Shown piece after piece: positions 3,507 to 41,045 of a DNA stretch of 64,000 nucleotides. Position 1 is the first letter of the stretch. Every line of letters starts with the position of its first letter. This DNA is from Cyathus striatus (lineage: Eukaryota > Basidiomycota > Agaricomycetes > Agaricales > Nidulariaceae), in the NCBI GenBank assembly GCA_025738555.1, contig JAOVFP010000001.1:6262001-6326000 (forward strand), given 5' to 3'. The position numbers and the translations under genes are program-made. Below the pieces are notes generated by a model, which saw nothing but the letters and a program-made list of their open reading frames with translations, made no database searches and was not told the origin of the DNA.

Positions 3507-3740
3507 GAGGTCATTACACTCCTCCACAAAATCATGTAGACTCCATGTAGATTCCACCTGGACTCCACCTGGACTCTACCTGGACTCTACCTGGACTCTA
3601 GCCAGAATTATGACCAGCCTATTTTCTATGTAAAGTCCAGGTAGAGTCCAGGTGAGTCCAGGTTGGCTTCATCTGCACTTTACACAGACTCTACCTGGAC
3701 TCCACCTGAACTCTAGGTGGACTTTCTGGTAGAATCTTTG
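3507..3740. mobile_element. X-side terminus and iterons of XT unit 5
   Basis: GAGGTCATTACACTCC at 3507 matches the X-side end consensus RAGSTCnTKAYRCT of units 1-3, A and G. It is followed by repeated GGACTCTACCT / GAGTCCAGGTA blocks in both orientations to about 3735. X5 lies downstream and points away from this end, as in the other units. The opposite end of unit 5 was not found; unit 2 interrupts X5 at 19672 and the continuation is not recognisable after 40507. The bases before the end (CTATAAAT, 3499-3506) are the candidate target duplication but have no visible partner. Confidence 0.65.
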
Positions 3741-3781
3741 TTACATGTTACATTAGAATTATTACTCTTACTTATATATGT

Positions 3782-3866
3782 AAAAAAAAATTGCACCACA
3801 GTGGTTCAAACCCAAGATGCGAACACTTAAATATGTGCACAATTACCACTAGGTTATTGGACCTTG
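3782..3866 (-). ncRNA. tRNA-like Pol III cassette of unit 5
   Basis: On the minus strand an A-box-like AACCTAGTGGTAATTGTGC (around 3838-3856) is followed by a B-box-like GGGTTTGAACC (around 3803-3815) and then a run of nine T (complement of 3782-3790), which would stop RNA polymerase III. It lies about 300 bp inside the unit end and points toward it. Stems of a real tRNA are poor, so it is tRNA-like rather than a tRNA. Units 1 and 3 have equivalents at the same place and orientation. Confidence 0.5.
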
Positions 3867-3949
3867 TAAAGTAAAGGTAAGCTACTCCTCTTGACAAGCT
3901 CACTGCCAGTGCCACATGTTTCAAAAATATTGTTAATGTCATACAACAC

Positions 3950-5310
3950 TTTCAACAACTCTCATCACTCTTAACCATGTCGTCGACACTGCATCTCCCA
4001 CCCCACCTCTGCTCTGTCCTCCACCTTGGTCCCCAGTGTGTCCCCACCCCCACACTCCCAGACCTCAACATTCCTCAATCTCAAGACTTTCAGTGATGTC
4101 CACAACATATTGCCCACATGCATTCTCACTAGGTAAGCCCCCTAGCTCCACCCCATCTTTGCTCACCTCTACATTTACCACTGCCACCCCTACAGGCTAC
4201 CATTGTTGATGCAGTAAGATCCACAATGTCACACAGCACACCACCATGTTCCCACTCTCCATTCCACACCCCACCATGCCCCCACCTCAACATCCCACCA
4301 CCTCAACCACACCACCTTGGCAATACTCTTCCCCAACCACTGCAGCGTCCCCCACCTTACAACAACAACACTATGATGCTCTCAATGCATACATCAGAGC
4401 CAGGTAAGCCTATTCTCTCATCTTGTATGGATGCCACATGCTACCTTACTTCCCACAGCATTATCTATGCTTCATAGATTTCACCCACAGCTCCACCTCA
4501 TCCTCACTGTGTTGCACTGACAATGATGCCTTGCCATTCAGCCTCTCCTCTTGCATCAAGAAGACAATGACGCTGCTGGCAAGAACAGCATTGATTCCAC
4601 ATCACCCCCCCTCCCCCCTCAGTGTCAACATCTCAGCCACCACCAGGACTGCTGCCTCACTAATGACAATAACAACTGCCTTCTTGCCCCCAATCACTGC
4701 TACCTCCACCACCTCCCCACAGCCAACACCAACTGTCTCATCCCCATGATGATAATGACCACACCACCACCATCCACCTCATCTTCACCACCACCAGTGT
4801 CTCATCCTCATGATGATGACAGCTATCATCACTACTAGCACTGTCTTGCCCCCCCCCACCACCACCAGCTGTCTCTTCCTCACAATGATGATGATGACCA
4901 CCACCACCACCATCTGCCGTCCCACCCCCACCACCACCAGTCATCTCATCCCCATGATGACAATGACAATGACCATTCACTGTCTCACCCCCTCACTACC
5001 ATCTGCCATCTTGCCCCCTCCCCCCACCACCAGCTGTCTCGCCATCATGATGATGATGACAATGATGACCATCCACCATCTTACCCCCACTAACCACTGT
5101 CTCATTCCCACAACCACCAACTATTGTCTCGCCTCCACCACCACCACCACCACCACCACCAACTGCTGTCTTGTCCCCACCACAACCATCCACTGTCTTG
5201 TCACCACTACCACCAACTGCTGTCTTGCCCCCACTACCACCACCACCACCTGCTGTCTTGCTCCCACCACCACCTGCCATCTTGCTCCCACTACCACTGC
5301 TTGTTTGTGT
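3950..5310 (+). repeat. C-rich CCA/ATGATG minisatellite of unit 5
   Basis: The + strand is rich in CCACCACCACC and CATGATGATGAC, with a recurring CTGTCTTGCCCCCACCACC motif from about 4840 to 5300. Open frames here (for example 4810-5313) are Thr/Pro-rich by-products of the repeat and I do not call them genes. The X-sense strand is the C-rich one, as in units 1, 2 and 3. Confidence 0.7.
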
Positions 5311-5974
5311 TAGAGTAACATTTTTATTTTATGTATATTAGCATAGCTAGTTCATGTATTAGATTTATCATAATGAATATATTATAACTTTTATAACAAG
5401 AACATGTGAGATTATGAATGAGTGATTAGTAGAATGTGAGATTGTGAGCATGTGCAAGTTATTAATATAGTACAAGGCAAGGTGCAAGCACATGCAGATG
5501 AAATCACCTCTGGTATATTATTATCACAGCGTGAGGCTGCAAGTGCATACAGATGCAATTGCTTCCATACATTATTAGTACAGTGTAAGGCTGGCAATTG
5601 ATTTAATAGCAATCTATTTAGACTGATGCCAGTCTATTTTTAGTAAATTTAATGTGGGTGCATGCCATGAACCTTAATGAATTCTGTTCTGTTTTTAACT
5701 TTTTGAATCAATGTGTGTCAGACTGAAATATAATTAGATTCTCACATATAGTAAGCTTTCTAAGTGATGAAATCTTTCTTCCCTTCCCACTTTGATCCAT
5801 ACTGAGATTGCTGTCTTGCCCCCCACCTGCTCTTCAATTTCACTATCCACTGTGTCAAGCATGTCTAAGTCAACTAAAACTTCAAACACTGTCAATCCCT
5901 CTATGGATGAGCCTAGATTGTTCAGATCTAGGACCAGAACTGTTACCCAGGAGCAAGTTGTGAGAACAACTAGT

Positions 5975-6240
5975 AAGATTACTACTAAGTCCCAAGAACA
6001 CTCTGGAGAAGGCAAATGCACCTTCTGAGCTTTCTGAAAGGCCTAAGTCTATGAGATCAAGTAGTAGGTTTGCTTCCTGGGCCCAAGAACAATCAGGAGA
6101 AGGGACAAATGCACCTCCTGAACTTTCTGAAAGGCCTAAATCCATCAGATCAAGTAGTAGAATTGCTTTCAGGGCTCAAGAACAGTCTGGAGGAGGGACA
6201 GAGACACCTCCTGAGCTTTTTGAAAAGCCTAAGTCCAAGA
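5975..6240 (+). repeat. Three tandem ~114-bp copies inside X5 exon 1
   Basis: Each copy encodes RSxxR...QEQSGxG...PSELSERPKS or a close variant, so the duplication multiplies an Arg/Ser basic patch. Copy one has lost two nucleotides relative to copies two and three, which breaks the frame. Confidence 0.7.
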
Positions 6241-6469
6241 AATCAAAAGCTAAAGTTAACACAAAATCCAAAAAAGTGAGAACTCAAGATATTTAGGTAG
6301 AACAGAGGAAGGAAAGGAAAAAGGAAAGGAAAAAGGAAAAGGAGGAGGAAAATCTAAGTGTATAGTATTTTAATTCATTCTTTATGTGATCTAACTAGCA
6401 TTAAAATGTAGAAAAACTTCAGTTACAAGACAACAAGAAGATATCACTAATGAAGCAAAAGGAAAACCA

Positions 6470-7841
6470 CTGTATATTTCACTCCTCCACAAGATCAGGT
6501 GGACTCTACCTGGACTCTACCTGGACTCCACCTGGACTCCACTGAACTCAAGTGCCTAAGCTGTATGTAGACTCTATTGTTACATGTGTGTGAAAGTGTG
6601 ACATGTTGAAAAATGTTGGAAAAAGCGTGACATGTGTGACAAGCGTGGGAAAAGCGTGACATGTTCGAAAAATGTCACATATCACAATCATCACACTTGC
6701 CACACTTTTTGAACATGTCACACTTTTCCCACGCTTGTCACACATGTCACGCTTTTTCCAACATTTTTCAACATGTCACACTTTCATACACATGTAACAA
6801 TAGAGTCTACATACAGCTTAGGCACCACACTTTTTCTAACATTTTTCAATATGTCACACTTTCACACATGTGTGACAAGTATGATGACTGTGGGAAACAT
6901 GTTACAACTATGACAATAGAGTCTAGGTAGAGTCTGATTGCTTGAGTCCAGGTAGAGTCCAGGTGGAGTCCAGGTGGAGTCCAGGTAGAGTCTAGGCAGA
7001 GTCTAGGCAGAGTCCTTACTCTGCCTAGACTCTATATGGACCACCTGGACTCTATCTGGACTCTACCTAGACTCTACATGGACTACCTGGACTCTACTGA
7101 ACTCAAGTTTACTAAAGTCCAGGTAGAGTCCAGGTAGAGTCCATGTAGAGTTCAGGTTCAGTCTAGGTGCTTGAGTTTACTAAAGTCCAGGTAGAGTCCA
7201 GGTAGAGTCCAGATAGAGTCCATGTAGAGTCCAGGTTCAGTCTAGATGCTTGAGTTTACTAAAGTCCAGGTAGAGTCCAGGTAGAATCCATGTAGAGTCC
7301 AGGTTCAGTCTAGGTGCTTGAGTTTACTAAAGTCCAAGTAGAGTCCAGGTAGAGTCCATGTAGAGTCCAGGTTCAGTCTAGTTACTTGATTCTACTGAAG
7401 TCCAGGTAGAGTCCAGGTAGAGTCCAGGTAGAGTCCATGTAGAGTCCAGGTTCAGTCTAGATGCTTGATTCTACTAAAGTTCAAGTAGAGTCCAGGTAGA
7501 GTCCAGGTAGAGTCCAGATAGAGTCCAGGTTCAGTCTAGGTGCTTGAATTTACTTAAGTCCAGGTAGAGTCCAGGTAGAGTCCAGGTAGAATCCAGGTGG
7601 AGTCCAGGTGGAGTCCAGTTGCTTGAGTCCAGTGGACTCCAGGTGCAGTCCAGCTCACACCTGGAGTCCACCTGAAGTCTATGTAGAGTCTATTATTTTC
7701 TATATGTAAAGTCCAGGTGAAGTCCAAGTAGAGTCCAAGTAGAGTCCAAGTGAAGTCCAAGTAGAGTCCAGGTAGAGTCCTGGAGTCCAGGTGGAATCTA
7801 CATGGAGTCTACATGATTTTGTGGAGGAGTGTAATGACCTT
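6470..7841 (+). mobile_element. G: non-autonomous XT-family element, 1.37 kb, 8-bp TSD GAAAACCA
   Basis: The left end is CTGTATATTTCACTCC and the right end, read inward, is AAGGTCATTACACTCC. GAAAACCA is duplicated at 6462-6469 and 7842-7849. The interior is iterons of GAGTCCAGGTA with a ~90-bp higher-order repeat (about 7120-7640; recurring GTTCAGTCTAGGTGCTTGAG). It interrupts exon 2 of X5; removing it and one duplication restores the exon up to the GTAAGT donor. The iterons are the same type as those at the unit 5 end, so G looks like a deletion derivative of the unit 5 family (inference). It encodes no protein. Confidence 0.9.
6548..6822. repeat. Long inverted repeat (~105-bp arms) in G
   Basis: The arm from about 6550 to 6657 (CTAAGCTGTATGTAGACTCT onward through AAAGCGTGACATGTGTGACA) reappears reverse-complemented at about 6718-6822 with very few differences, separated by about 60 bp. 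A partial third arm follows to about 6920. Transcribed, it would form a long hairpin. Confidence 0.8.
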
Positions 7842-8777
7842 GAAAACCACAGCATTTAACCCTGTAAGTAACTATTATGTTGACCTTGAATATTTTAACT
7901 AATTCAGTAGAGCAGAACAAATTCTGGAGGATGAAAATACATCTGTTGCTCCTCCTCCTTCTCAACTTCACATGTCCTTGCCTGAGAATACTGCTTCTAC
8001 TTTCACTGCTGAAAAATAAGGTGACTTGTTGAATAAAGAAGAAATTCTGGTACCATTGAGTTCACAATTGGGGAGTATGAAACTTGATATATCTAAGTCT
8101 TCATCTGAGTCATCTTCTGACTCTAACTCTTCAGACACTTCTGAGTCAATTGAGCAGCTCAATAAGCTTGATACATCTGTAAATGAGTCAGAAGAAACAG
8201 ATGAATCAGAAGAAATGAAAGAGTCTGAGGAAATAGATGACTCAGAAGATATGAGTGAGTCTGAGAAAATGAATGAGCTAGAAGAGACAAGCAAGCCAGA
8301 ATACATGGATACTGACCATACACTAAAGAAAGCTTCTGATTCTAAACATAGTTGGTCAGAGCTCTCAAGTTCTTCTGAAGATTCTGAGAGTCAAAGTAGT
8401 TCAATGAGTAAGATATCATGCCAGTCAAAGTCCCATAGCTCAGTTAGGAGCTTCACATGCAGTTGGAGGGTTTTCCTGCCAGCATGCTATAGGTAATTTC
8501 TTTAACTTTGGAGATCAAGAAGGTATATTTGTGTTATTTATCAATTCATTAGTTTTACTTATTCATTTATATAGATGTACTTATGATACCATCAAATAAC
8601 ACACAAGGCAAAATTCATTTATTCCTGAAGCATGATTATACTGAAGCAGATTACATTATCGACAATCAGACTCCAGGTTCTGATCTTGCTACTGTTCTTG
8701 AGGTTGTTGATGAATATTGGGAGCTGGTGTCTGGTATGTTCTCTTACTAATACTACAAATAATCTGTATGTGTCACT

Positions 8778-9290
8778 CCCACACATGTCTCAACTGACTC
8801 TCACCTGACTCTCACCTGACTCTCATCTAAGTCTCAATAGTCTCACCTGACTCTCATCTGACTCTCAACTAAGTCTCAGAAGTCAGGTTAGACTCTCATC
8901 TGACTATCATTTGACTCTCAACTAAGTCTCAGAAGTCAGCTGAGAGTCTAAACTAGGTCTCAACTGAGTCTCAAGAGTCAACTGAGAGTCTCATTAGAGT
9001 CAGTTGAGAGTCAGTTGAGACTTCCTGAATTAGTATTGGGCTTAGCTTGGATTCACACATGACTCTCACCTGACTCTCACCTGACTCTCATCTGACTCTC
9101 ACCTGACTCTCACCTGACTCTCATCTGACTCTCATCTGACTCTCACCTAACTCTCATTTGTCTCTCACCTGACTCTCACCTGACTCTCACCTAACTCTCA
9201 CCTGACTCTCATTTGTCTCTCACCTAACTCTCACCTGACTCTCATCTGTCTCTCACCTGACTCTCATCTGACTCTTATCTGACTATTACC
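8778..9290. repeat. T-side iterons of unit 1 (CTCACCTGACT)
   Basis: About forty copies of an ~11-bp motif CTCACCTGACT / CTCATCTGACT, with some in reverse orientation near 8880-9020 (GAGAGTCAGTTGAG). The same motif returns at the other end (about 18905-19205). Position and repetition suggest transposase binding sites (inference). Confidence 0.85.
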
Positions 9291-9405
9291 CAAGAATTAT
9301 CATGGCAAAAATTATTTGTGCAATTAATTATAAAATTCTCAACAAGAAATTCATATTACAATAATTAAATAAACAGATCAACCTAAGAATGAGAGCTATT
9401 TAATA

Positions 9406-11821
9406 TTACATTATCTGATCATCAGGTATATCTTCTTCCACTTCCTCCCTATCATACTCATCACCAGCTTGCTCCTCTTCCTCTTCCTCAGGATTATTTG
9501 AAGCTTTATTAAGCTGATTTTGAATAACTTTCTGAGTATGAATAAATAGTAGAGCATGAATGGTCCAATCAAAATTTGCCACAGTCATTCTATTAAGAAT
9601 ACTTTGATATCCTCCTAGCCAAGCATTGAGTTGTTCACATGCCTATTAAACTATTAATTGTTAATATAAATCAGCAATAAAAGAACTTACTTGTGTATTA
9701 AATGCCCTCTTATAGTGGGGTCTACCATTTATATCATATTCTACTACTACCAGATTTGGTGCAGAACTATTCAAAGGTGCAGGGTTACACCATTTCCTGT
9801 AAATGTAATCAGTTGTGCGATGATTGATATAGTGGTAAGAGTCTACAATCAATCTAGATGTACGACTCCATATTTCCCATGCTCCATTTAAAATAGCTGC
9901 TTGTAAAACTACACAAGCTTTATCAATGCAAATATAACTTGGTCTGGATTCCTCAGTAGGATATACTTTATTAAGAAAATCCAAAATTTGAACTGGGCCT
10001 TCAGACTTAGTAAATTTAGTCCATGCTTTAACAATACCACATGGAGCACAAATAGTTTCTACACAATAATATCTTGGTGCCACAAAATAGTTTTCTCGTT
10101 TGTTGCAACATATATTAGCTGCAGGAGGATTGTCATGAGCTGGGGCTACTTGGCGATTAACTGGGGGAAGCCAATCCAATCTTTCATTATCAGTTCTATG
10201 AAGAATTCTCCTAATACCTAATAAAGATTGACGCCCAAATCTGATTAAATGACTGCGCCATCTATTGTCATGCTCAATACAAGTCTTAGTATTGGGTTCT
10301 TTATAATTATCACAATCTGCAATATGGCATAAATGCCCACGTAATATTCTGTGTTCTGTGCAAAATACCCCATTCACTTCATTTTCTAGTTTTTGGTCAC
10401 AGTCTTCAAATGCACAATGTCTGGGTCCCATAATAATTCCATCTATAACAATCATATTTGTAATAGCTATATTCTCAGATTCATTGGAAGTTGGTTCAGA
10501 CCTTAAACTAGGAGAATCAAATTCACTTGAACTACTATTAGAATTACTATCAATATCCATTTCATGCTCAGATTCATATTGTACTTGACGGGCATTGCGT
10601 GCATTCTGTCTAGCTTCAATGGCATCCTGTCTAGCCAAATCTGCACCTTCTCCCATTAGATTTGGAACAGCATGATTTTCATCAATTCCAATTATAGCTG
10701 CTGGATCATCTTCAGTTAATACATCAGCAGTAGCTTTATATTCATGTGTACATTCACTGCATGAATGACCATCAGCAGACTGAATTATTCCATTTTGACC
10801 AAGTGAATCAAATGCACACTTTGTTATTTTGTTAATTGCATATTGCTCAAAAGGTACAGTTAAAGTAGTATTCTCTGAACTTGCTACTTGTCGAATAGTC
10901 TCATACACAAATGCTTGCCATGTTTGACGGCGAGATAACTTGAATGGTATTTCTGTTGAACTTATAAAGCATTCATTCCAAAATATAGTAAAAGCAGAGC
11001 TGGATGCATGAAAGTGGTATATTGCCTGTACAACTGAATTTGTGAAAGATCGATCAGCCCAAACTTTCTGGCCAATTTTCATAAATTTTGCTGCATTTAC
11101 TAAACTTCTGACTCTATGATTTTGAATTTTTGCATGCTTGGAGTCAGCATAATAAAATGACTGGCAGTTATTACATTTTCCTTTCAAGATATATGCATTT
11201 TTATATCTGTGCATTCCCTTTATAAGTGTTACACAAGGATAGTCTCTTTCACGAGTATCTTGATGAAGTGCTGCATTATTACAGTCTCCTGCTGAACATT
11301 GTACACATGCTGGACAAATAGCAAATACAGGCTCAATATTAGCAGTTGAAACTGGATTAAGACTATCCCCATTTCTAACTGGATCCAGACAGAGAAACTT
11401 GGCAAACATATCTAGTTTTTCACCTAGCATATTAAAGTATACTGCATCAGTTTCTATATTGGCAATAGATATTTCATCTTCATTGAATAAATGATTAATA
11501 TCATCATTTATGTGCTTTTGGAGTATTCGTGCAAGTGCAGTAATCCAACCAGTAACAAGTTGTCTATTCTCTCCTGGTACAAGGACAACTTGTTGTCTTG
11601 AATGAAGATTTATTAAATCTGTATTATTTGTTAAGGTGAATAATACTGTAAGCACTGTTGCTAGTGTTACTTCAGCACTGAAGTTCAATGAAATAAATCT
11701 GGAGAAGTCATTAAATTTAATATTTGGAAATGGATCTTGAGCTGGAGAGGAAGCACATGCTTTGGGAAGGCATGTTATAAATCCATAAAATATTACAGTC
11801 CAACAAATATATTCCCAAATA
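9406..11821 (-). CDS. T1: CxC5/CxC6 KDZ-like transposase, reads intact
   Basis: Two exons are clear: 11821-9691 and 9642-9406, joined by a 48-bp GTAAGT..AG intron between AFNTQ and ACEQLN. A CAG acceptor at 11822 implies a short 5' exon I cannot place. The visible product is about 800 residues. Counting from TTG at 11688: CxC5-type cysteines CPACVQC (125-131) and CNNC (172-175); HSCSEC near 308; an acidic-serine linker; CxC6-type cluster (HCAFEDC, FCTEH, LCHIADC, TCIEH, 424-473); CAPCG (547-551). The candidate D-D-E core is YICIDKAC (D589), LIVDSYHY (D616) and ACEQLN (E669). Before residue 1 there is a hydrophobic stretch (IWEYICWTVIFYGFITC). The C-terminus is acidic. No stop or frameshift is seen. 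CxC5/CxC6 clusters are known as partners of fungal KDZ transposases; the catalytic assignment is my inference. Confidence 0.88.
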
Positions 11822-11919
11822 CTGTATAAAATATTGTTAGTATATGATAATCAACTTAAAATATAAATAAAATAGTAAGATGACAAATGTTATGCATTGC
11901 ACATCATTAAACAACAAAA

Positions 11920-12165
11920 TGATACAACTAATCTTTACTGTTGAAGTATAATATACAATCTACATACTTGTTGAAAGTATGAAGAAATCAACAAGGAATC
12001 TATACTGTTGAAAGTACAGATTTACAATTGAAGCTATACTTGTTGAAAGTATAACTTCATTAAAAAGAATAGAATAGATAACAAAGCTTTTATGAAAAAT
12101 TTATACTGTTGAAGTATTGATAAAAAAACTTCAAGTTATACTTGTTGAAAGTATAACTTTGTTGA
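11920..12165. promoter_or_regulatory. Repeated ACTGTTGAAGTA / TACTTGTTGAAAGTA spacer between X1 and T1
   Basis: CTGTTGAAG and CTTGTTGAAAGTAT recur every 50-70 bp in the gap between the end of X1 and the start of T1. The spacer between X2 and T2 has the same motifs. The location, upstream of T, fits a promoter or a protein-binding region, but function is inferred from position only. Confidence 0.45.
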
Positions 12166-14042
12166 AAATAACAAAGAAAATATTCTTACAAAGCTCGCTC
12201 CTTTCCTTTTTTACTCCCTCCCCTCTTATCTTTACCCTTGCCCTTATTCTTGTCCTTTTCCTTCTCTTTCTCCTTCTCTCTCTCTTCCTTTTCTTCTTCT
12301 TTCTTCTTCTTCTCAGCAATAGTAATACGCTTATTCAGAATTTCACCTAGATAATCAATACCAGGCTTCCTAGCTCCCCAGACATCTTCATTCTTAATAT
12401 TGGGATCTCCCATAAACCATTGTTCCATCCTTTTAAAATACTTCAGGTTGTGAAAGTGCCTATGAACCCTGAAGTAGGATGATGGTGTTGCAAAAAATAT
12501 GGTATATGTTCGCTCATTACTACTCTCCTTTCCAGTAAAGGATCCATCAGCAATCTTTCCAGGTAACTCCAAAATGATCTTCTGTATAAAGAGCCATTTT
12601 GCATATACAACACGAATACTGACAGTCCCCTCATAGCGCAAAGCAGGAGGAATCTTAAAGATGTCAATAATTTGCTGCTACTCTTTAGTAACTGATCTTA
12701 GAGCTTTACTTGAACCAGAACCAGAAGCCACAGGAGCAGATGTGGTAGCAGCAGGAGCTGAGATCATGTTTGTAGATGAATCAAGTCCTTCCTATGAAAA
12801 CTGTGAGTTAATTATAGCAAATAAATACTCCATACTTACTGCTAAAACATGACAAACTGTATTGTTTTTTTCATTAACAAACCACTCAATATCTTCAAGA
12901 TCTGTTAGAAGTTCTGAATAGTGGCCTTTAATAACCCAAGTATTATCCTCCCAGATAAACATATATGGGTTCAACACTGTACATAGATATAGTCAATATA
13001 TATGTGGACATAAAGAATAGATGATATACCTTTGACATATGAATATTTTTGACCAATCAACTGTACAATTTTACCAAGTTTGTAATGCAATTTAACATTT
13101 TTGATGGCAAAATGTGCTTCTGTTGATTTGCGATTACTGAAAACATGTATGGTTCCAGTTGTAGGTACCTCAAATGGTACTTCATCTCTTTCCTCTATAA
13201 AATGTGTTAAATAGTTAAACAAAACAAAACATTTTAATTATTTACCTGCATCACCAAAGTTAAAATTATTTCCTAGTGCATGCTCACGCATGTGACCACC
13301 TGTAATTTTAGATGCACCTTGTAACTCAAGAGAGTCCACAGCCTTAGCAACAGAGTCATCTTCATCTGAATCAACTTCTTCTGAATGCTGGTCATTAAAT
13401 TGACTCATGAAGCTTTCAAAAGTTTGATCCTCTCTAATAAGATTGGATTCTAAACCAGTTAAACTATCCAAGGTAGATGAATGACTGGATGCAGTGCTAT
13501 GTAATAAAGACTTTCGACTAGACTTTGAAGAGCAGCTGTCAATACTAACAGTGGGACTGGTTGGGCTAGTAGAGCAGTTGCGCCTCTTGTTGTTTTTTTT
13601 AGGAGTTTTATCAACATCCATTTCCTCTGTATCATCATATTCACCCTCAATTGAAGTAGATCCTTTACTTAATAATTCACTAGATTTTGACTTAGAGGTA
13701 TTGCCAGTTGACTTAGATCCACTGAATATGGACAGTTCCTTTTCATTCAATGAATCACCAGAAGTGGACTTAATAGAGCTACTGAATGCAGAGCCACTTG
13801 ATCCTGACCTAGAGTCTGTTGAAGTCTTTACATGAGGTGGGAGTACTGTCCCAGAGCGACCATGAAGCTGAGGAGGTGGAGCAACTGTCAAGTTGCTTCG
13901 CTCCAGAATTAGTTCTGTTCTATATATAATGTAAAGCAATAAGTAGAAAGAATAGAATAAGAAATTATACCTAGTTAGATGAGGTGGCACCCCTTGAGCA
14001 TCAAGCTCTTGGTCCTCTTGTAGACGCTGAACAGAAGATTTC

Positions 14043-16505: not shown

Positions 16506-16930
16506 AAGATTTCCTATAAAAGAATAAATTAAGTGCAACAGATATTATTAAACAACATGACTTACTTGACTTTCTTCCTCCGTCCTTTGGGAATAGGTTT
16601 CTGTTTTATCTTCTTTCCCTTCCCTGTACCTTTCTCTGACACCTCTATTACATCCTCCTCTTCCTCCTCCTCTTCCTCCTCCTCCTCCTTATTGCCATCA
16701 CTCTCATTATCCCCTTCTTGCTCCTCATTGCTCTCAGATTGATTCCCTTTCCTGCCCCTTCCCTTTGGTCGAGCCCTAGAAGCAGGCCTCCCCCTTTTAG
16801 CAGTTGGAGCACGACTAGAAGCACCACTTGCAGGTGCAGTGGTAGTATTCCTAGATCTGGATCTAGTGGAAGAGGATGGTGGAGCAGCACCAGCACCAGC
16901 AGCAGCAGTCTTGGACCTAGTGGTATGCAT

Positions 16931-17336
16931 GGTAGACAAAAGTAGACAGTAAAAAAGCAGTGTAAAAAGCGAAATTGTATCTTAAGTGTTGTGCACTCAG
17001 ATAAAGGAAGAAAGGGAAAAGAGACACAGTCTTTACTTATATCATTCATGGGACTTGGTCAATCAATCTCTGGCGGCACAAAAGAAGAAAAGAAGCATGT
17101 ATTATTAACATGAGACAGACATGTGTCTACTCTATAAATAACATTCCTACCTCGAACTCCAACTCCTACTCAATTGGGTGCTGTTTCAATGGTCACTGGC
17201 AACTGCCAGGACTCAATGAACCAGCACCAAAGAGGAGGAGAGGAAGGGAGGGCTTGGAAGGGAGGGGTAAGAAAGATACATATGTGCATTGGGGTGTTGA
17301 CATGGGAGAAACCACGATATAAATAGATTTTGTGAG
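16931..17336. other. 5' flank of X1 with a 17-bp motif shared with X2
   Basis: No gene is seen. CACTGGCAACTGCCAGG at 17194-17210, about 265 bp upstream of the X1 start, is identical to 38367-38383, about 220 bp upstream of the X2 start. It contains the inverted repeat TGGCA/TGCCA. A promoter role is inferred from position. Confidence 0.4.
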
Positions 17337-17337
17337 A

Positions 17338-18893: not shown

Positions 18894-18904
18894 CACTGAT
18901 AACT

Positions 18905-20070: not shown

Positions 20071-20073
20071 CAC

Positions 20074-21275: not shown

Positions 21276-21343
21276 AATTTTTTAAGTTAGCTTATTATTC
21301 TTGCAGGTTAGGCAAAGCAAACAGAATATCAATTCAAACTATA

Positions 21344-22400: not shown

Positions 22401-22419
22401 TAGTACAAAAGTAAAACTG

Positions 22420-31700: not shown

Positions 31701-34700
31701 TTTATTTTCGCTTTCATTATTGGTATCATATCCATCTGATTCATGTTCTTCTTCAACTGTAGAAGATATAAATGTTTAGATACACATTTTATACATGTAA
31801 ATGAATATTTCTTTACCTTTTTCATGTCTGAATGGCGCTTACGAGTAACAGTGAAAACTGGAGCTGCTGGTTGAGGTACATCAGAAGATGGACCCCGCTT
31901 TGGAGGGGCAACAGGAAGGCCGCTTTCCTCCAGCACCCTTTCAGCACTAAGTATTATTAGTACATAAATATTGTATAAATATATGTAATACGTACGCAGT
32001 AAGGTCAGGTACACCTTCTTTATCTGCAGCAGCATCCTCAGCTCTTTTCTGTTCCGAAGTTTTTCTAAAAAATATTAGCAAGGCAGTGAAAGGGAGTTGT
32101 GAAACCATACCGAGTTTTTTTGGCTTTCTTGGCTTTTACAACTTTTTTACTCTGTTTTTCCTGCACATTTTCACTCTCCTCATTATCTGTAATAGGTTTG
32201 TTGGTTGTGGCCTGCTTCTTTGTTGGTGGTTGGGCTGTAAGATCGGCAGCAGAAGTACCACGCTTGCGAGACTCGCTACGAGTTTCATGTGTAGCAACTG
32301 ACAGAGAAGCAGACTCAGTAGGAGTAATACTAGAAGCCTGAGTTGTAGCAGAGCGAGTGGAACGACGAGGAGCCATTGTGTGTAGAAGTGTTAAAATGCT
32401 TTGAGATAGCAAGATAGTGGTGGTGGTTGAGGGTTGAGAAGGAGGGGGATTGATGCAAACCAAAATCTTAGAAGTCTGATGATGCACAGCAAATTCTCAT
32501 GATCAAAAGTTAAAAATATACAGCCTTTTATAGGCTACATTGAACATAACTAAATATATATTACATGTCATTGGCTATACAACATAACTATCTAACTATT
32601 TTAAGGAGACACAGCCTTTGATCTTCTTCGGCCCGTTGACAGCACGCATGAAGACAAAGGGAGAGGGGGAGAGACGGCATGATAGGGGGGAAAGGGGACA
32701 ACAGACGATGGGGATGAGGGGGACGAGGAGGTAGCGGAGGAGGGGAGAAGGGAAAGGGGATGGATACTCATCCTCGTCACTTGCAAGATGAGGAGGCAGA
32801 GGCGGAGGGGAGGAGGGCATGGGAGGAGGGGGGGTGACGGGTGGCTCGTCCTTGTCATTTGCGAGACGAGGCATGGGAGGAGGGGGGGACGAATGCTCAT
32901 CCTCGTCATTTGCGAGACGAGGCACGGGAGGAGGGGGGGACGAACGCTCGTCCTCGTCATCTGCGAGACGAGGAGGGGAAGGAGGGGGTAACGGCTGGCT
33001 CATCCTCGTCATTTGCGAGATGAGGAGAAGTGGGAGGAGGGGAGATGGCTGGCTGGTTCTCGTCATTTGCGAGACAAGGAGGGGAAGGAGGAGGGGGGAC
33101 GAGGGCCGAGCGCTCGTCCTCGTCATTTGCAAGACGAGGAGAGGGGGGACGAGCGCTCGTCCACGTCACTTGCGAGACGAGGACGGGGGAGGGGGGACAG
33201 TGCTCGTCCTCGTCACTTGTGAGACGAGGACGAGGAGGGGGGGGGGACGAGCGCAGGTCCTCATCACTTGTGAGACGAGGACGAGGAGGGGGGGACGAGT
33301 GCAGGTCCTCGTCACTTGTGAGACGAGGACGAGGAGGGGGACGAGTGCAGGTCCTCGTCACTTGCGAGACGAGGACGAGGAGGGGGGGGGGGGGGACGAG
33401 GGGGGGGGACGAGGAGGGGGGGGACGAGCGCAGGTCCTCGTCACTTGCGAGACGAGGATGAGGAGGGGGGGGATGAGCGCAGGTCCTCGTCACTTGCGAG
33501 ACGAGGACGAGGAGGGGGGGGGGGACGAGCGCAGGTCCTCGTCACTTGCGAGACGAGGACGAGGAGGGGGGGGATGAGGAGGGGGGGGACGAGCGCTCGT
33601 CCTCGTCACTTGTGAGACGAGGATGAGGAGGGGGGGACGGCGCAGGTCCTCGTCACTTGCGAGACGAGGACGAGGAGGGGGGGGGGACGAGCGCAGGTCC
33701 TCGTCACTTGTGAGATGAGGACGAGGAGGGGGGGGGACGAGCGCAGGTCCTCGTCACTTGCGAGACGAGGACGAGGACGAGGAGGGGGGGGAGAGCGCTC
33801 GTCCATGTCACTTGCAAGACGAGGACGAGGACGAGGTGGGGGACGAGCACTTGTCCACGTCACTTGCGAGACGAGGACGAGGAGGAGAGGGGGGACGGCA
33901 AGCTCGTCATTTGCGAGACGAGAGGCAGGCTGGGAGGGGGGACGGCCGCTCGTCCTCGTCACTTACAAGACGAGGCAGAGGGAGGAGGCGAGGGGGTGGT
34001 GACTAGACGAGAAGGAGCGAGCGAGTGAGGGAAGAGGGAAGAGGGAAGAGCGATACTTACCTATACCGTGTATGCGCTCACACACACACCCTCCCTTTCC
34101 ACTATGGCGCCTGTGCCATTACCACGCGTTATCGATCTTGAAGGAAATCGATTGTCACCTGCTAAGTGTTGGTGGGGCGACAACGTGGGAAGGGGGCTTA
34201 AGGCGACGACTTGAGAGGCTTGGGGTGACGACGTGGGAGGGGGCTTGAGGCGACGACGTGGGAATGGAGCTTGAGGCGAAGGCACTGACATGGGAAGGTG
34301 AGGCGATGACATGTGAGAGAAAGAGAGAGTGCGGTGGGAAAAACTACATGCTGTTTTAGGAAAGTGAGATATATGGCTAATATAACTTACTGACTTAAGA
34401 AAATATAAGACCGTTTGGTGTATCGGTATTGCGTACGATTTCAGTGTGCACGTGACTTGTCCCTACGTTGCTGGTTCGATTCACGCTGGTTGTAAAGTTT
34501 TTACTATAGAATATTAAAGGTAACTAACTAGTAATAATAAGTAACTAGTAATAGTGGGTACTTGTAAGTCCGTGTCCGCCTAGTCCAACTGGAGTCCAGG
34601 TGAGTTCCGAACGGATTTAGTCTGCCGGAATTCCTGCTAAACTTGCCGGACTCCAGCTAATGAAAGCATTCCTGGCGGACTCCAGGTGGACTCCAGTTGG

Positions 34701-37700
34701 ACTGGAACCGGACTGGATTTGGAAAATTGGGTGGACTCACAGCAAAAATGTGTCCGCCTGGAGTCCAGCTGGAATCCACGGACTATCTGGAAAATCCTTG
34801 AAGTTCGTCCGGATAGTCCGTGGAATCCATGGAGTCCGTCCGGAGTCCGAACGGAATGGGGGGGCGAGCATAAAGACCTCGAGGGAGATGAGACTCATTG
34901 AGCATAGCTGTAACATCATCAGCCATAGTGTGATTTGCACGCTCTGCAACTCCATTTTGCTGAGGTCTGGCAGGAGCAGTATGTCTCCTTACAATTCCAC
35001 ATCTATCTGTGAACTTGATGAATGCATTAGACATGTATTCACCTCCCTTGTCATCCTGTAAAGCTTTAATCTTTCTCCCAAGTTGGTTCTCAACCAAAGA
35101 CTTGTAACTCCTGAAAGCATCAAATGCACCACTCTTCTTCTTCAAGAAGGCAACACAACGATATCTGGTGTAATCATCAATGAATGTGATCCAGTATCTA
35201 TAGCCAGATGGAGTCTGAGTAGGCAAAGGGCCATGGAGGTCAGAATGAATGAGCTCTAAAGGGGCAGAAGTGCAAGATTCAGATGAAGGGAATGGATTAG
35301 AATGCATCTTGCCAGCTAAGCAAGGTTCACAGATAGGGTCAGGCTTCTCCTTGGACTTGATGACAATCCCTGTAGCCATATCTTCAGATATAAGTTTCTG
35401 AATGTCTGCATAATTATGGTGTGCAAGACGACGATGCCATAGCTGTAAATCCATGGGGCAAGTTGAAGAAATGTTGGCTACTTCAGAAACAGCAGAAAGG
35501 GCTTCTGTCTCTCCATCCAAGTATGCATTATTGTTGGGAGTGATGGAAGCAGAGAATATAAGACTTCCATTCTTGCTGAAATCAACATACTGTGATCCAG
35601 CAGTCATAATGATGCCCTTGCAATGAGTTAAGTAGAGACAGGAGAGTAAATTGTTTCTGAGCTGGGGTACATGCAGGACTCTGGTGAATTCTATAGATCT
35701 GGATACCTTTCCTCTAATCACTGGGTGAAAGACCACAGTGCCCACTCCTTGGGAATAAATGATTTTCCCATCAGCTAACTTGATTGGAACCTTCTTGGGT
35801 GCATAATTGCGAACCCAATGGTGATGGGGTGTCATATGACAAGATGCCCCTGTATCTGTGTTCCAATCAAAGTCTGCATCAAGTTGGAGTGGGTAGGAAG
35901 GATCTGAGGGATCCAGAGAACGAGTACTTGCATTTCCAGCAAATTCAGTAGCATCTCCATTGAATTCTGAATCAAATTTGACATCAGCAGAGGCAGTAGT
36001 AACTTCTGATGTGGAGGATTGTGCTATGGAAGCAGTGGAAGAGGGAGAAGGCTGTGGAGAACCAGTGGAAGATGGCAGACTAGATGAAGATATGCCAGGA
36101 GAGGTACTTTTGGGTGAAGTGGAACCTGGAGTGGAACCTGGAATGGAAGACCTAGTGGTAGCCTGCTTATGAGCTCGTGATCTTGCTCTTTTGAATCTGT
36201 AGCAGTTGGATTGAAAGTGACCAACTCGATTGCAGAATTCACAAGTAATAGACATGGTGTCACCAATGTCCAGATGTGGGGAGACAAAGCAGGTGATGTA
36301 GAATAACAAGACCAAAGGAATGTGATTTGAAGTGCACTGTGAGTAATGACCCAGACAGCACACTGAATGGATGTGCAGAGGAGAAAGACCAGAGTGTGGT
36401 AGGAACTGCACTGTCGGTAAAATCCCAGACAGCATAAGTAGAAGGAAGGTGATGAGTTGTAGTGGAACTACCAGAACAACTGGGTAAAAAGAATGTGGAG
36501 TGGAGGTTGATTTAACAAGCAAGCAGTTAAAGCTCGGGGCCCATAACCTGTGAGATGTACAACCAGGGCAGTGACCTGCAGGACTGAGAGAGACACAATA
36601 GGGTCTGAAGTCCAATGTACAGTGAGCAAGTATTAGATTGAAGTAGTATGTGTACAGCTTACCTGAAGTCCAATGTACAGTGAGCAAGTGGGGATTGCCA
36701 CTGTAGGACCTCAGGATTATATACTACTAGCTTATCTACCAAAGTCCGAGGGTCCAAGGGTCCAACCAAGGTCCCAACCCAGGTCCAGTACCTAAGTTTA
36801 CCTAAGTCTACCTAAGGTTCATTAGTCAGCAGAGAAGTGTCAGATCACTTCTAACACTTTGTTCCTATATATTTCAGAAGTTTGTACAGATAAACCTGGA
36901 GCTCTACTCTTCTGAATGTAAAGATTGGGAGAGAACTAAAAAGATCATTGTAAATTTTGATAACTCCAGTTGATGGAGTTGTATTAGTGGTATCAACTAT
37001 CATTTTATCTTTGTCTCCAATATTAAAGATATTTCCAAGTGCATTCTGATGGCTGTGCCCACCAATAATCTTTGATGCTCCTTGAAGGTCAATAGATGTG
37101 TCATCTGGAGTGGAATATTCAGATTGCCTTATAAAGTTTTCAAATTGCTCAGGATTCTGAAGTACATTGTTCCTCACAGATTTTTCAGACATAGATGTAG
37201 AACTCCTAGTTGAAGTTCTGGATACAGACCAGCTAGAAGCAGACTGGCTATTTGATGCAGAACTGTGGGAAATAGACCTTCAGCTAATCTTTGATGAGTG
37301 GCTACTAGTACTCAGAGTGGGAGACTCAGGAGAACTGGATCTTCCCCACTTTTCAGTAGCCTTCTGGGGAGTAGTCTCAATAATCTCATAATCTATATCC
37401 TCTTCTTGAATTTGACCTGGATGTGAGGAAAATACTAATGATGTCTCATGCTTATTAAACAGATGTCCCATGTCATTTGAAAGCGAACTAAATGGATCTT
37501 GAGGAGTAGGATAGATGCTGGTGTAACAGTTCCTGAGCATTCACAATAATGAGGTGGTGGTGCCACTGGAACATTGCTATTTTCTAAGATTTTTTCAACT
37601 CTAAAAAATGAGAACAATATGAGAAAAGATGTGAATATGAATAAAAAAATATACTTTGTAAATCTCTTTGGTTTTCCAGCAGCTTCATTTTGCTGGTCTT

Positions 37701-38146
37701 CTTTGAGTCTTTGAACAGAGCTTTTCCTGCCAGTACATAAGATGACTAAAAATAATATACACTTTTACTCACTTAATTTTCTTCTTTCTAGCCCCCCCTC
37801 CCTGCTCTCTCACTCCTCCCTCCCTCTCTTCCCCTTCCTCCCTTCCCTCTTCCCCCCCCTCCCTTTCTACTCCAACTTCCTCCTCCCCTGTCCCACTTTC
37901 CTCCTCCTCCTTCTCCTCCTCCTCCTCCTCCTCATTGTCACTCACAATCCTTTTCCCTCCCTTCCCCTTTCTCCCACCCCTACCCCCCCCTCCAGACTTA
38001 GCTGGCCCCCCTCTCTTAGACTTGGAGGTAGAAGCTTGAGGCTTGATTGTGTCAGCACTCCAAGAATCCTTGGTCCTGGACCTGGTGGAGGTAGCAGGGA
38101 TGGAAGATGCAGCAGCAGTGGCAGATCTAAGAGACCTAGGTGCCAC
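22785..38146 (-). CDS. X2: partner gene X of unit 2, split by the Copia element
   Basis: The N-terminal part (38146 to about 36862) has APRSLRSATAAASS, a Gly/Arg- and Glu-rich region, KSSVQRLKEDQQNEAAGKP, ILENSNVPVAPPP, a Ser-rich region and GASKIIGGHSHQNALGNIF. Copia lies between 36856 and 23610. The C-terminal part (23609-22785) has NPYVFLWEDNGWSLTGQYS, AQKRIIDFFKVPLALHDHG, LQYAKWVFIENIIKKFP, KMELWFEGNPDIS and a Lys-rich tail. Apart from the insertion I see no stop or frameshift, so it looks like a recently killed gene. At the place where X3 starts with ATG, X2 reads GTG (38146); an ATG at 38210 in frame could serve instead. Compare X1 and X3 for the family pattern. The molecular role is unknown. 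Confidence 0.7.
23610..23952 (-). repeat. Copia LTR, 343 bp (3' LTR in element sense)
   Basis: Same sequence as 36549-36856 except for extra GGGTCCAA copies near 23815-23880. Followed inside the element by a C-run (CCCCCCCC, the minus-strand polypurine tract region). Confidence 0.9.
26397..26640. repeat. T-side iterons of unit 3 (GAGTCCGG / GGAGTCC)
   Basis: GTCCGGACTCCGGACGG opens the block, then GGTGGAGTCCGGNGGAGTCC variants follow. The matching block at about 34570-34860 uses the same motifs. Confidence 0.85.
26675..27010. repeat. Tandem ~57-bp repeat (TACTACATTTTCCCACACCC)
   Basis: Four or so degenerate copies of a unit containing CATTTTCCCACACCCTTCAG and CATGCTACCACTACT, between the iterons and the 3' end of T3. 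No coding pattern. Confidence 0.65.
27046..29190 (-). pseudogene. T3: CxC5/CxC6 KDZ-like transposase with three frameshifts
   Basis: It covers the whole T family: a hydrophobic N-terminal segment (FWLLIIWLFQWLPSAILV), FPNITFDVFSKFILSNF, CxC5 cysteines (CPIAAEC, CEKC), CxC6 (CAYDNC, FCDVH, CRVRDC, CNEH), YYCVETICAPCG, then YICIDKAC, FVVDGYHY and ACEQLNSW for the presumed D-D-E. It ends at TAG 27048-27046. Frameshifts lie in an A-run near 28905, near 27840 (also an A-run) and near 27440. No stop codon is needed to explain the breaks, so decay is recent. It has an intron after IVMGPQ (about 27953-28000) that T1 lacks, and it lacks the T1 intron before ACEQLN. Confidence 0.85.
29232..29997 (+). 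mobile_element. E3: solo LTR, 766 bp, 5-bp TSD ATATG
   Basis: Begins TGTTATATCCATGTCCGG and ends CGGTACGTAACA, with ATATG at 29227-29231 and 29998-30002. TG..CA ends, a 5-bp duplication and lack of coding fit a solo LTR. CpG is abundant here, unlike most of the window, which suggests this copy is young. It separates X3 from T3. Confidence 0.85.
30068..32376 (-). CDS. X3: partner gene X of unit 3, most complete copy
   Basis: Starts at ATG 32376 (MAPRRSTRSATTQASS) and ends at 30068 in a Lys/Glu-rich tail. Exons in order: basic N-terminus with KKAKKTR; KTSEQKRAEDAAADKEG; RVLEESGLPVAPPKRGP; several short Ser/Asp-rich exons; SPPVSPPRTISKPGTVD; GGILRGNALGNH (the shortened form of the HALGN motif); VWLYMSNADPSTVMVPGVAS; CLYVYESKAWNILGNFESA; then EELIDVLKIPRNILESTAPG, VAYQRYLACIKAV, WYENYSNF, MQSWLAEDE and LWGFERDYY. 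Introns are short. I see no certain lesion, though small exon borders were placed by eye. Function is unknown; constant pairing with T suggests a shared job in mobility or expression of the unit. Confidence 0.65.
32500..32685. other. 5' flank of X3
   Basis: No gene recognised. The 17-bp CACTGGCAACTGCCAGG motif upstream of X1 and X2 is not found here. Confidence 0.4.
32690..33990. repeat. G-rich minisatellite of unit 3 (CCTCGTC..GACGAGG)
   Basis: Monomers of about 45-60 bp join CCTCGTCACTTGCGAGACGAGG (given here as arms CCTCGTC and GACGAGG around an 8-nt loop) to G-runs of 6-12. The + strand is G-rich, as in units 1 and 2. Open frames of up to 252 codons in it are artefacts. Confidence 0.88.
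34408..34502 (+). ncRNA. tRNA-like Pol III cassette of unit 3
   Basis: GTTTGGTGTATCGGTATTGC (from 34413) resembles a tRNA D-arm with A-box, GGTTCGATTC at 34473-34482 is a good B-box, and GTTTTTAC at 34497-34504 gives a T5 stop. It points toward the X-side end about 380 bp away. The T-stem does not pair fully, so a working tRNA is unlikely. Confidence 0.55.
34570..34865. repeat. X-side iterons of unit 3
   Basis: GGACTCCAGGTGGACTCCAG and GGAGTCCGNCCGGAGTCCG variants in both orientations, matching the T-side block. Confidence 0.8.
36549..36856 (-). repeat. Copia LTR, 308 bp (5' LTR in element sense)
   Basis: The 5' LTR in minus-strand sense. The bases just inside, GGTTATGGGCCCCGAG read on the minus strand, are the primer-binding-site region. 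Flanked by CTTTG at 36857-36861. Confidence 0.9.
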
Positions 38147-38515
38147 AGTAAAAGAGCAGAAAACAGTAAAGTAAAAAGAGCAAAAAGCAGTGACAGATCT
38201 TAAGTGATGCACTCAGATGAGGGAAGAAAGAAAGGGAACTGAACCCCAAGGTGTTTCTATATATTACAAGTTGCGACACATCACAGGTTCAAACTATAAA
38301 TAACTACTTGACAAGTAATTACCAAAATTCTTCCACAAAGTTCCAAATAGGTCCTGCTGTTCTCATCACTGGCAACTGCCAGGATAAGAAGGCCACAGGA
38401 CCTAATACAGAAAAGGATATCTCCACCGAAGCAGAGGAAAGACAAAAATTATAATTAAAGCAACCAAAGAGCCTCTGCACAAAGCAGAGAACATCAAAAA
38501 ATTGACAGGCATGCA
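38147..38515. other. 5' flank of X2 with the shared 17-bp motif
   Basis: CACTGGCAACTGCCAGG at 38367-38383 matches 17194-17210 exactly. Nothing else recognisable. Confidence 0.4.
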
Positions 38516-38519
38516 ACAC

Positions 38520-39350
38520 AACAAGAGGGTGGGAGCAGATGCACAATGAAGGGAGGGGGCAGAGTGCCACTCAATGCAATGTGAAAGGAATGAGGAGAAG
38601 CAGAGCACCACATGACACAATGAGAAGGGGGTGGGGAGGAGCAGAGTGCCATGCGATGCAACAAGAGGGTGGGGAGTGGATGCACAACAAGGGGAGGGTG
38701 GGAGGGAGAGCATTGCTCAACACAATGAGAAGCAGAGTGCCAGACTGCTACTCAACACAGTGAGATGCACGACAAGGAGAGGGGGGCAGAGTGCCACTCG
38801 ACACAACAAGAAGGGGATGAGAAAAAGCAGAGTGCCAGAGTGCTACTTGATGCAATGATAAAGTCCTGTGGAGTGAGGGGGTGGACAGGTGGTAATGTGT
38901 GTCGTCCTACACAGTAGGAAGGGGGGTCCAGAGGTGGTAGTTGTTGTCCTAGGTGGCAGGGAGGGGGTCTGAGGTGGAGATGTGTGTCATCCTACACAGT
39001 GGGAGGGAGGTCCAGAGGTAGTGGTTATTGTCCTATGCAGCAGGGATGGGGTCTGAGGTGGAGATGCATGTCATCCTATGCAGCAGGAGGGGGGTCCAGA
39101 GGTGGTCATCATTGTCCTAGGCAGCAGGGAGGGGGTCTGAGGTGGAGATGTGTGTCATTCTACGTGGTGGGAGGGGGGTCTGGAGGTGGTGGTTATTGTC
39201 CTACACAGCAGGGAGGGGGACCAGAGCTGTGCATTGTCATCCTATGCTGTGAACTGGGGGACCAAGGGTGGTGTGTTGTCATCCTACACAGTGAAACAGG
39301 GGACAAGAAGTTATGCATTGTCATTCTACACAGCAGGGAGGGGCTAGTAT
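38520..39350. repeat. G-rich minisatellites of unit 2
   Basis: Two arrays: about 38520-38870 (GGNAGAGTGCCACNCNATGCAA units) and about 38880-39350 (~90-bp units with GGGAGGGGGTCTGAGGTGG and TGTGTCATCCTACACA, whose ends TGTGT/ACACA can pair). Same strand bias as in units 1 and 3. Confidence 0.8.
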
Positions 39351-39384
39351 TACAATCACCTATGCTGAAAGGAGGGGAGGGGGA

Positions 39385-39960
39385 TTCCATGATCGCCCAT
39401 GATAAGAGGTGCCATATTTGCCCATGCAAACTGAGCCCATGCTGAAGATTGGAAGAAATTGTCCACACCATCAAATGTCATGTGCATTCATTGACATAGA
39501 ATATCAGGTGCTGCTAAAAAAAAAACATGCGAGATCGAATACAGACAAAAAAAGAAAATGCTCACTATTGATCCCAATACTGCCAACACCCAACACCCAA
39601 CATCCAATGCTGCGTAACAGGGGCCAGAGGTAGTGTGTTGCTGAACTGAGGTTGTCCTATGCTGCGAAATGGGGACCAGAGGCAGTGGGTTGTCATCCTA
39701 TGTGGCAGGGAAGGGGTCCATGATTGCCCATGCTAAAGAGTGCCATATTCACCCATGCACAATGAGTGCCGTATTCGCCCATGCAAACTGAGCCCACACT
39801 GAAGATTGGAAGAAATCACCCATGCCATCAAATGCCATGTGCGTTTGTTGACATAGCATATCTGGTGCTGCTAAAAAAAATGCGTGAGATCGAACAGAGA
39901 CAAAAAAAGAAAAACTCACATTAGCCAATGCCCAATGCCCAATGCCCAATGTGCTTGAAG
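39385..39960. repeat. Direct duplication, offset about 358 bp
   Basis: GCCCATGCAAACTGAGCCCA..CTGAAGATTGGAAGAAAT near 39418 recurs near 39778, and the following CATCAAATGNCATGTG and ACANACAAAAAAAGAAAA blocks also repeat. No gene. Confidence 0.7.
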
Positions 39961-40249
39961 TACCAAATGGAAAGTTACATATCTCACAAGCAAGCAGAAA
40001 GGAAGGAGAGAGGAGGGAGGGGAGGGGAAGGGAGGGGAGGGGAATAAGAAGTGGGATATTGTTGCTGTTGCTCAGTGCAAGTAGCAAGTCTGGATTTGTC
40101 TGATGATTTGGTCACATGAGAAATCAAATTGATACACACAGACCATTAGTGTGCACAGACCATCAATGCTCATGGACTATTAGTGTGCACAAACAATGAC
40201 AATAAGATCTATGCATATGCATGGACCATGTCACGTGATTTTTGTGGTG

Positions 40250-40500
40250 GGAGCAATTTCTCAGTAGATTCCCATTGGACTCCCTGAGATACCTCTCAGC
40301 ATAACCTCATTGGACTCTCTGAGAATCTCACTAATGGGAATTTAGTGAGAGTTTACTGAGATACAAAATTGTATGTAATCTCACTGGACTCTCTCCACAC
40401 TCTCAATACTTGCACTAAAATTAATACTAATTCTCACCAGAGTCTCAGAGACTCTCACTGGACTCTCACTGGACTCCAGTGAGACTGTGGGTTAGTGTAA
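40250..40500. repeat. X-side iterons of unit 2
   Basis: CTCACTGGACTCTC / GAGAATCTCACT variants ending at CTCCAGTGAGACTGTGGG just inside the X-side end at 40507. Confidence 0.75.
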
Positions 40501-41045
40501 TGACCTCCATGAATCACAATAACCAAGCTAGCATGCTATATCAATGCCTTGCATGAGCTTCATCATGAGTAAGTCTATATCTTGTAAACATTTTATCTTT
40601 AGTATAGATTGTTGATTATAATGATTTCCTTACAAATGGTATGTAGTTTTAAGATAAAATAGTGTAGATAAAATAGTACCACAGACATAATGGTGTCACT
40701 TTTTATAAAAATAAGAGATGGTATTTGAATGATTTGAAATGCATCAATACAGAACTGAACTTATGACTACAAGACAGAAAAACTTTATTTCAGGGATGTT
40801 TGTTACATCTGTGTCCAGAATCTGCTATTCTGCACTATCCCGACATTCCTGCACTTCCCACACTTCCGCATTGGCCGCATTTCTGACCAATTGTCAGATA
40901 CGTCGTCATGATTTATCATTTACTTACTTGTGCATGAGTGTTAGCCAGAATGATCATAAAAATGAAGTGTTTTATGATTGCCGCAATCATCTATCTCATG
41001 ATTGCCTGTTTCTAATGTAACTACTATATGTCTATTACAATTATT

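Follow-up and report, generated by a model that had tools for sequence, protein, structure and literature searches.

The window analysed here, a stretch of 64,000 nucleotides (nt) of Cyathus striatus (C1:6262001-6326000 of a 107-Mb, 24-contig assembly), carries copies of a mobile element in which X, a protein part of about 500 residues without known domain, precedes T, a protein part with the cysteine clusters CxC5 and CxC6. These elements are likely to represent a lineage of cut-and-paste-type DNA transposons in mushroom-forming fungi, in which X and T would be encoded by one spliced gene and T would provide a DDE transposase.

X and T as parts of one element

Unit 1, a family A element, comprises the following features:

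8764..19230, minus strand: unit 1, with an exact 8-bp duplication ATTATTTG (element-strand reading) and the termini GAGGTCGTGACACTT...GGAGTGACACATACAG
16565..16981, minus strand: first exon region of X1 (MHTTRSKT..., basic, AT-hook-like by eye)
14044..16505, no strand assigned: nested piece separating exon A from exon B within X1, missing from genome copy A2
13241..13920, minus strand: exon B of X1 (APPP motif ... LQGASKITGGH)
12189..12788, minus strand: last exon region of X1 (IFKIP domain, K-rich tail), with one in-frame stop in the unit 1 copy
11822..12189, minus strand: putative X1-T1 intron of 368 nt, GTAAGAA...TATACAG, read in the near-identical copy A2 and in the window
9664..11821, minus strand: main exon of T1 with hydrophobic segment, CxC5, CxC6 and catalytic domain (Pfam and open frame)
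9463..9624, minus strand: last exon region of T1 with the proposed catalytic E helix (ACEQLNAWLGG; tblastn)

The open frame of T1 spans 9664-11850 on the minus strand, its CxC5 and CxC6 are matched by Pfam, and an alignment of T1 with the Cyathus striatus protein P0114 (323 columns with 35 gaps) shows matches in 272 of the 288 positions free of gaps. The presence of AAGATTTCC at both edges of the nested piece suggests that this piece is a non-autonomous element flanked by a duplication of 8-9 bp. Without it unit 1 measures about 8.0 kb, as the original prediction had stated. A 19-bp minisatellite was seen twice, at 1195-2985 and at 14366-16225, the latter within the nested piece.

After merging, searches of the assembly yielded 258 T loci (T queries) and 274 X loci (queries with the last exons of units 1, 2 and 3). 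In 193 of the 274 X loci a same-strand T follows downstream within 2.5 kb (median gap 444 nt), a count which is a lower bound since the locus search scores best candidates only; for the same reason the 81 other X loci are not evidence of a lone X. Seen from T, X was located upstream in 193 of 258 loci. In 200 trials of random placement on the same contig, X-T pairs numbered 1.2 on average and never more than 4, and an opposite-strand T within 2.5 kb of X was found in none of the 274 loci. Six chosen unpaired X loci were fetched and a same-strand T was present in all of them; X is thus not mostly found away from T. The original prediction had each of T1, T2 and T3 following its respective X (X1, X2 and X3) on the same strand; this was confirmed, all of them being on the minus strand.

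Ten genome copies (seven of family A, three of family B) were examined over 20 kb each. In all ten as well as in unit 1, T is immediately preceded by X exon pieces, although A6 keeps part of X only. The survey of target duplications comprised 21 copies, namely eight of family A (including unit 1), four of family B (including unit 2) and nine of family 3 (including unit 3). As A4 lacks its right end, 20 copies have both ends, and in all 20 these ends lie outside X. X is supported as a constant part of the transposon.

Outside the Cyathus genome, a query with the X part of a Pleurotus protein retrieved nine proteins including the query, all of them from Pleurotus; by reading, seven are X-T fusions and two are X alone. 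As this search admitted only proteins 688-2191 residues long, it is biased towards fusions. The Flammula protein P0040 starts with the C-terminus of X (E 6e-13 to X3) followed by T, and X2 matched P0090 weakly (E 1e-4, 23%). The C-terminal half of T matched 870 protein clusters. Among the T matches listed are the agarics Amanita, Galerina, Gymnopilus, Cyathus, Crucibulum, Pleurotus and Panaeolus as well as Dentipellis; no T relatives were found in viral or prokaryotic contigs.

The transposon ends read 5'-GAGGTC...C(A/T)G-3'. Family A starts with GAGGTCGTGACACTTAGCC, or with the variant GAGAACTTGTC in A4, A6, A7 and A8, and ends with GGAGTGACACATACAG; family B starts with GAGGTCATTACACTGACCC and ends with GCAATATACTG, and unit 3 starts with GAGGTCTTTATGC and ends with GCGTAAAGTACTG. 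Alignable sequence breaks off at the same places in most of the ten genome copies and unit 1. For unit 3, 31 of 42 genome matches begin exactly at window position 26376 and six more no further than 4 bases away, while 8 of 9 family-3 matches stop at 34880. By eye, the ends of families A, B and 3 form imperfect terminal inverted repeats, which agree over the first tens of bases and mismatch in the outermost few (GAGGTC versus C[A/T]GTA).

An exact 8-bp target duplication flanks 13 of the 20 copies with both ends: A1 (unit 1), A2, A3, A6, A8, B1, B2, unit 3 and the family-3 copies on C4, C7, C5, C22 and C6. An element-strand G closes 9 of these 13 duplications, which may reflect a target preference.

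GAGTC/GACTC cores of the iterons are enriched near the ends, with counts in the first 500 bp, the last 500 bp and the middle (per 500 bp) of 6, 26 and 0.5 in unit 1, 7, 6 and 1.0 in unit 2 and 8, 13 and 0.7 in unit 3. Furthermore, a minisatellite with a C-rich sense strand (GC skew -0.41 to -0.65) was detected 5' of X in four of four units. The predicted order of iterons, Pol III-like cassette, minisatellite, X, T and iterons was thus confirmed with regard to the iterons near both ends and the minisatellite, but not to the Pol III-like cassette, for which 0 tRNAs and 0 Rfam matches at the gathering threshold were obtained.

The X-T junction

The junction of X and T was read in 16 loci (A2, A4, B2 and L029-L041; L042 was excluded because its X tail is broken), which include near copies and amount to approximately eight independent kinds. 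The X stop codon overlaps GTAAG or GTGAG, a phase-2 donor, in all 16 junctions, and a phase-matching acceptor precedes T in all 16, some of them offering more than one possible acceptor. The putative intron is shortest, at 49-59 nt, in L029 and L037-L040, which represent family 3 and two remote kinds; L030 has 139 nt, and the remaining junctions have 368-573 nt. Protein models show the same point of divergence: the X-only models P0089 and P0092 end in ...AAKKATK, where the fused models P0090 and P0091 read ...AAKKATN-FCLQG, and the ends of the former would fit a read-through into the intron. Judged from these splice signals and gene models, X and T probably constitute one spliced gene.

The alternative that the transposon carries X and T as separate genes, with T expressed from its own transcript or from a non-AUG start, appears rather improbable. 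It might explain why the spacer of 368-573 nt in several families exceeds the gaps between other X exon pieces, and hairpins in this spacer could serve regulation. An open T frame with a Met before the core exists in 8 of 16 junctions, although in two of these (L034 and L041) the sole Met of the T frame is located upstream of the acceptor; in some metagenomic T frames the initial Met immediately precedes the hydrophobic segment, and P0089 and P0092 are models of X only. However, the other eight junctions (A2, A4, B2, L031-L033, L035 and L036) contain no Met before the FP anchor of T, and the earliest Met of the T1 open frame is residue 141. Moreover, the spacers of 49-59 nt with splice signals leave scant room for a promoter, and the X-only models stop at the point expected from reading through the donor site. 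Of the proposed two-gene transposon, the location of X and T inside one element was therefore retained, whereas the separation into two genes became doubtful.

Hairpins with a TCAAC loop and stems of at least 6 pairs occur two to five times each in 8 of 10 introns tested, as compared to 0-0.013 expected from shuffles, and none in two shorter introns (49 and 139 nt). In the putative X1-T1 intron they are located at 12148, 12046 and 11974. Every such hairpin in A2, A4, A8, B1 and B2 falls within the X-T intron, a placement checked in these five elements and in A4 and A8 only as far as the alignment reaches. On the minus strand of the window five of six are in an X-T intron and the sixth is in the X5 part (36973); a plus-strand hairpin outside the intron is located at 36993. 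The stems vary in sequence while their pairing is kept (AAGTTATACTT/AAGTATAACTT, CCACTT/AAGTGG, AAAATACT/AGTATTTT), and folding of the L034 intron RNA gave a z-score of -3.1. It is our guess that the hairpin intron permits regulated splicing; a masking of decoy splice sites by the hairpins would be another conceivable role. In the Drosophila P element, which also generates 8-bp duplications, intron retention in the transposase gene leads to a truncated product, and by analogy the X-T intron could work alike.

At the position of the T exon start, a hydrophobic 17-mer precedes the FP anchor in 56 of 56 homologues having at least 28 residues there, and is directly followed by [AVST]xA in 55 of 56. 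Such a motif after a hydrophobic segment corresponds to the signal peptide rule. A far-reaching reading would be a separate DDE superfamily in which X-T is gated by the structured intron and contains an internal segment that is signal-peptide-like and cleavable; X alone, a membrane-tethered X-T and a released T would then be distinct products controlling transposition. We regard this as unlikely.

Fold of T and its relation to the KDZ superfamily

Based on Pfam and PDB sequence searches no relative of X, and none of T beyond CxC5/CxC6, could be detected, Pfam rows under the curated cut-offs being treated as chance. One PDB sequence search gave TRPM2 channels only (E 0.1), and the profile of the T C-terminus had no sequence match in PDB at E<=10. 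The predicted structure of the T C-terminus, in turn, adopts an integrase-like DDE (RNase H-like) fold. A library of viral structures gave no match at E<=0.001, its weak rows including four DDE or IS4-like transposases of giant viruses.

The proposed catalytic residues on strand 1, strand 4 and the final helix are D5, D172 and E252, conserved in 34 of 37, 61 of 62 and 63 of 63 ungapped rows, respectively; D470 and G471 are unvarying in 25 rows. D5 was assigned from the range of the fold alignment. A triad E127-D172-E252 was dropped as the fold alignment starts at model residue 1 and places D5 near D64 of the integrase. In contrast to the catalytic core of the retroviral integrase and IstA, T apparently carries the CxC6 zinc cluster inserted after the first strand. 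Within the X-T reading, the model makes it likely that T is a DDE transposase.

Pfam naming ties CxC5 and CxC6 to KDZ transposases, and the original prediction likewise took them to be KDZ-associated. The KDZ transposase domain (PF18758) had no match at E<=1 in the T1, T3 and X frames of the window that were scanned, and was absent among 25 of the 31 families for 38 homologues. Judged against at least 92 KDZ loci among the matches listed, 11 weak places included, KDZ was found within 2.5 kb of T in 0 of 258 loci versus 2.1 expected, and within 5 kb in 3 of 258 versus 3.7 expected. T is not linked to KDZ genes in the Cyathus genome, and the KDZ association is a database label.

It is therefore highly unlikely that the element is mobilised by a KDZ transposase with T as an accessory cysteine-cluster protein, despite the Pfam names and the 8-bp duplications that occur in KDZ elements too (PMC12810828 and PMC12730594, in the parts available). 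Apart from the undetected domain and the chance-level proximity, T itself is modelled as a DDE fold, and the available part of PMC7641404 reports no KDZ near CxC5/CxC6 frames in Pleurotus either. Clearly less doubtful, though still not favoured, is the possibility that T is a strongly diverged KDZ transposase and not a separate lineage. By eye the motif order is alike (D, Cys/His insert, D-x-A/G-C, H...C, E), and KDZ elements are fungal DNA transposons with cysteine clusters as well. However, comparison of the T and KDZ profiles by hhalign gave a probability of about 1%, with only 1 or 5 near-identical sequences on the KDZ side. According to the part of Kojima 2025 (PMC12730594) available, Zisupton shares the 8-bp duplications, whereas Kyakuja has CA..TG ends, 7-bp duplications and no terminal inverted repeats, unlike the ends and inverted repeats found here; a partner resembling X was not found described for KDZ there.

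No hAT dimerisation or transposase domain was among the families listed from the Pfam scans of window frames and homologues. The hAT elements also make 8-bp duplications, and this length is not diagnostic.

Nesting, relation to Copia and proposed mechanism

The window further contains the following, partly nested elements:

19672..40507, minus strand: unit 2, family B element interrupted by nested insertions, with its left end at 40507 and CAATATACTG as its right end
36856..38711, minus strand: 5' half of the unit 2 X gene (X5), 91.7% to genome copy B1, collinear
22401..23610, minus strand: 3' half of the unit 2 X gene (X2) and start of the X-T intron, 98.3% to B1; hairpins at 22661 and 22457
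20761..21343, minus strand: T2, truncated, N-terminal part only, 94.3% to B1
34881..36855, minus strand: Copia portion on one side of unit 3 (gag/integrase frame by eye)
23611..26375, minus strand: Copia portion on the other side of unit 3 (reverse transcriptase/RNase H frames by eye)
26376..34880, minus strand: unit 3, family 3 element within Copia, with the exact duplication GAGGGAGA; ends from genome copies
30071..32496, minus strand: X3 exon pieces
30023..30071, minus strand: putative X3-T3 intron of 49 nt, phase 2 (genome copy L029 and window)
27049..29280, minus strand: T3, with frame breaks in the window copy
3507..8763, plus strand: fourth X element with left end 3507 and X pieces at 7909-8533, cut by unit 1; further X piece at 19260-19607

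The family-B copy B1 is collinear with the window over 40507-39857, 38711-36856, 23610-22401, 21343-20761 and 20074-19675. X5 and X2 are halves of one gene because B1 aligns across all these pieces, and on this sequence comparison X5, X2 and T2 form a single element. Its flanking 8-mers, GATTCATG and GTTTTTTG, disagree. The originally predicted fourfold recurrence of the architecture accordingly holds only if the plus-strand remnant is counted in place of X5; no plus-strand T was found in the window for this remnant. The length of about 7.7 kb predicted for unit 3 without insertions agrees with a genome copy on C4 (about 7,657 bp).

Inverted arrays of a 64-bp repeat at 41049-42446 and 55605-56233, approximately 14 kb apart, flank a plus-strand CxC2-KDZ gene (52353-54236). 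These arrays may be subterminal repeats that belong to a separate KDZ element.

Copia lies between the two halves of the unit 2 X gene and is itself split by unit 3. In Pleurotus ostreatus, a 6,792-bp insert in poMSH4 contains a CxC5/CxC6 frame of 739 amino acids (Lavrijssen et al. 2020, PMC7641404). According to the available part of that paper, the insert resembles the present elements in this frame, in identical copies, in repeats and in the lack of KDZ nearby; it differs in that the authors linked it to Copia. That CxC5/CxC6 proteins move with Copia retrotransposons, as they proposed, would agree with Copia adjoining the elements in Pleurotus and occurring inside unit 2. In the window, however, Copia is the target, into which unit 3 was inserted with its own 8-bp duplication, and other family-3 matches stop at the unit 3 end and do not continue into Copia, leaving hardly any probability for this explanation. 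Neither 'duplication' nor 'terminal inverted' turned up as a term in the main text of PMC7641404, and its available part mentions no terminal repeats, duplications, partner X or transposase fold. The 6.8-kb insert is probably a transposon of the same kind as described here. The X-T layout was not found described in the literature searched, which did not include Repbase and the text of Iyer et al. 2014.

Several observations weigh against the interpretation as transposons with one X-T transposase gene. The duplication was unmatched in 7 of 20 copies (A5, A7, B3, unit 2 and the family-3 copies C8, C8b and C21). The left end of A5 is damaged, and the C8 copy has as its right flank ATAATTCT, which is also the left 8-mer of C8b (L054-L057, family-3 copies on contig C8); this points to an exchange of flanks between both copies. 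A same-strand T lies upstream of X within 2.5 kb in 2 of 274 loci, and in P0036, a T model of Pleurotus pulmonarius, the N-terminal part is a different one and was not identified as X. A Met follows the acceptor and precedes the T core in 6 of 16 junctions (L029, L030, L037-L040), where T possibly has its own start, and this slightly lowers our confidence in one gene. Concerning the fold, Foldseek alone gave no PDB match at E<=0.001 (best 0.018), and the model of the whole T (predicted local distance difference test 65.6) matched nothing useful, the C-terminal model being used instead. E127 (63 of 63) and D199 (61 of 63) are conserved like the proposed triad, so that the choice of the triad rests on the model. 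Purifying selection was shown, yet the ratio of non-synonymous to synonymous rates (dN/dS) of T was 0.37 and 0.54 in two near-identical pairs with few changes, and dS of X was saturated in two pairs. Finally, the segment resembling a signal peptide at the X-T border is unusual for an enzyme of the nucleus.

In the mechanism we propose, one spliced gene would yield an X-T protein, X being joined to T by a phase-2 intron. T would be a DDE transposase in which CxC5 precedes the catalytic core, while CxC6 is an insertion following its first strand. By binding to the 11-bp iterons close to the ends and cutting at GAGGTC and C(A/T)G, T would insert the element with 8-bp duplications, presumably by cut-and-paste rather than by copying. 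Within this protein, X would probably be responsible for binding to DNA, chromatin or a complex.

Relatives of T are currently labelled merely as 'cysteine cluster associated with KDZ', and recognising autonomous transposons with a fused X would correct the annotation of many fungal genes. The hairpin intron and the signal-peptide-like segment at the border raise the question of how the transposase is made and where it goes. Furthermore, a transposon of the X-T kind may have caused the sporeless mutation of the oyster mushroom, for which it would offer a simple cause.

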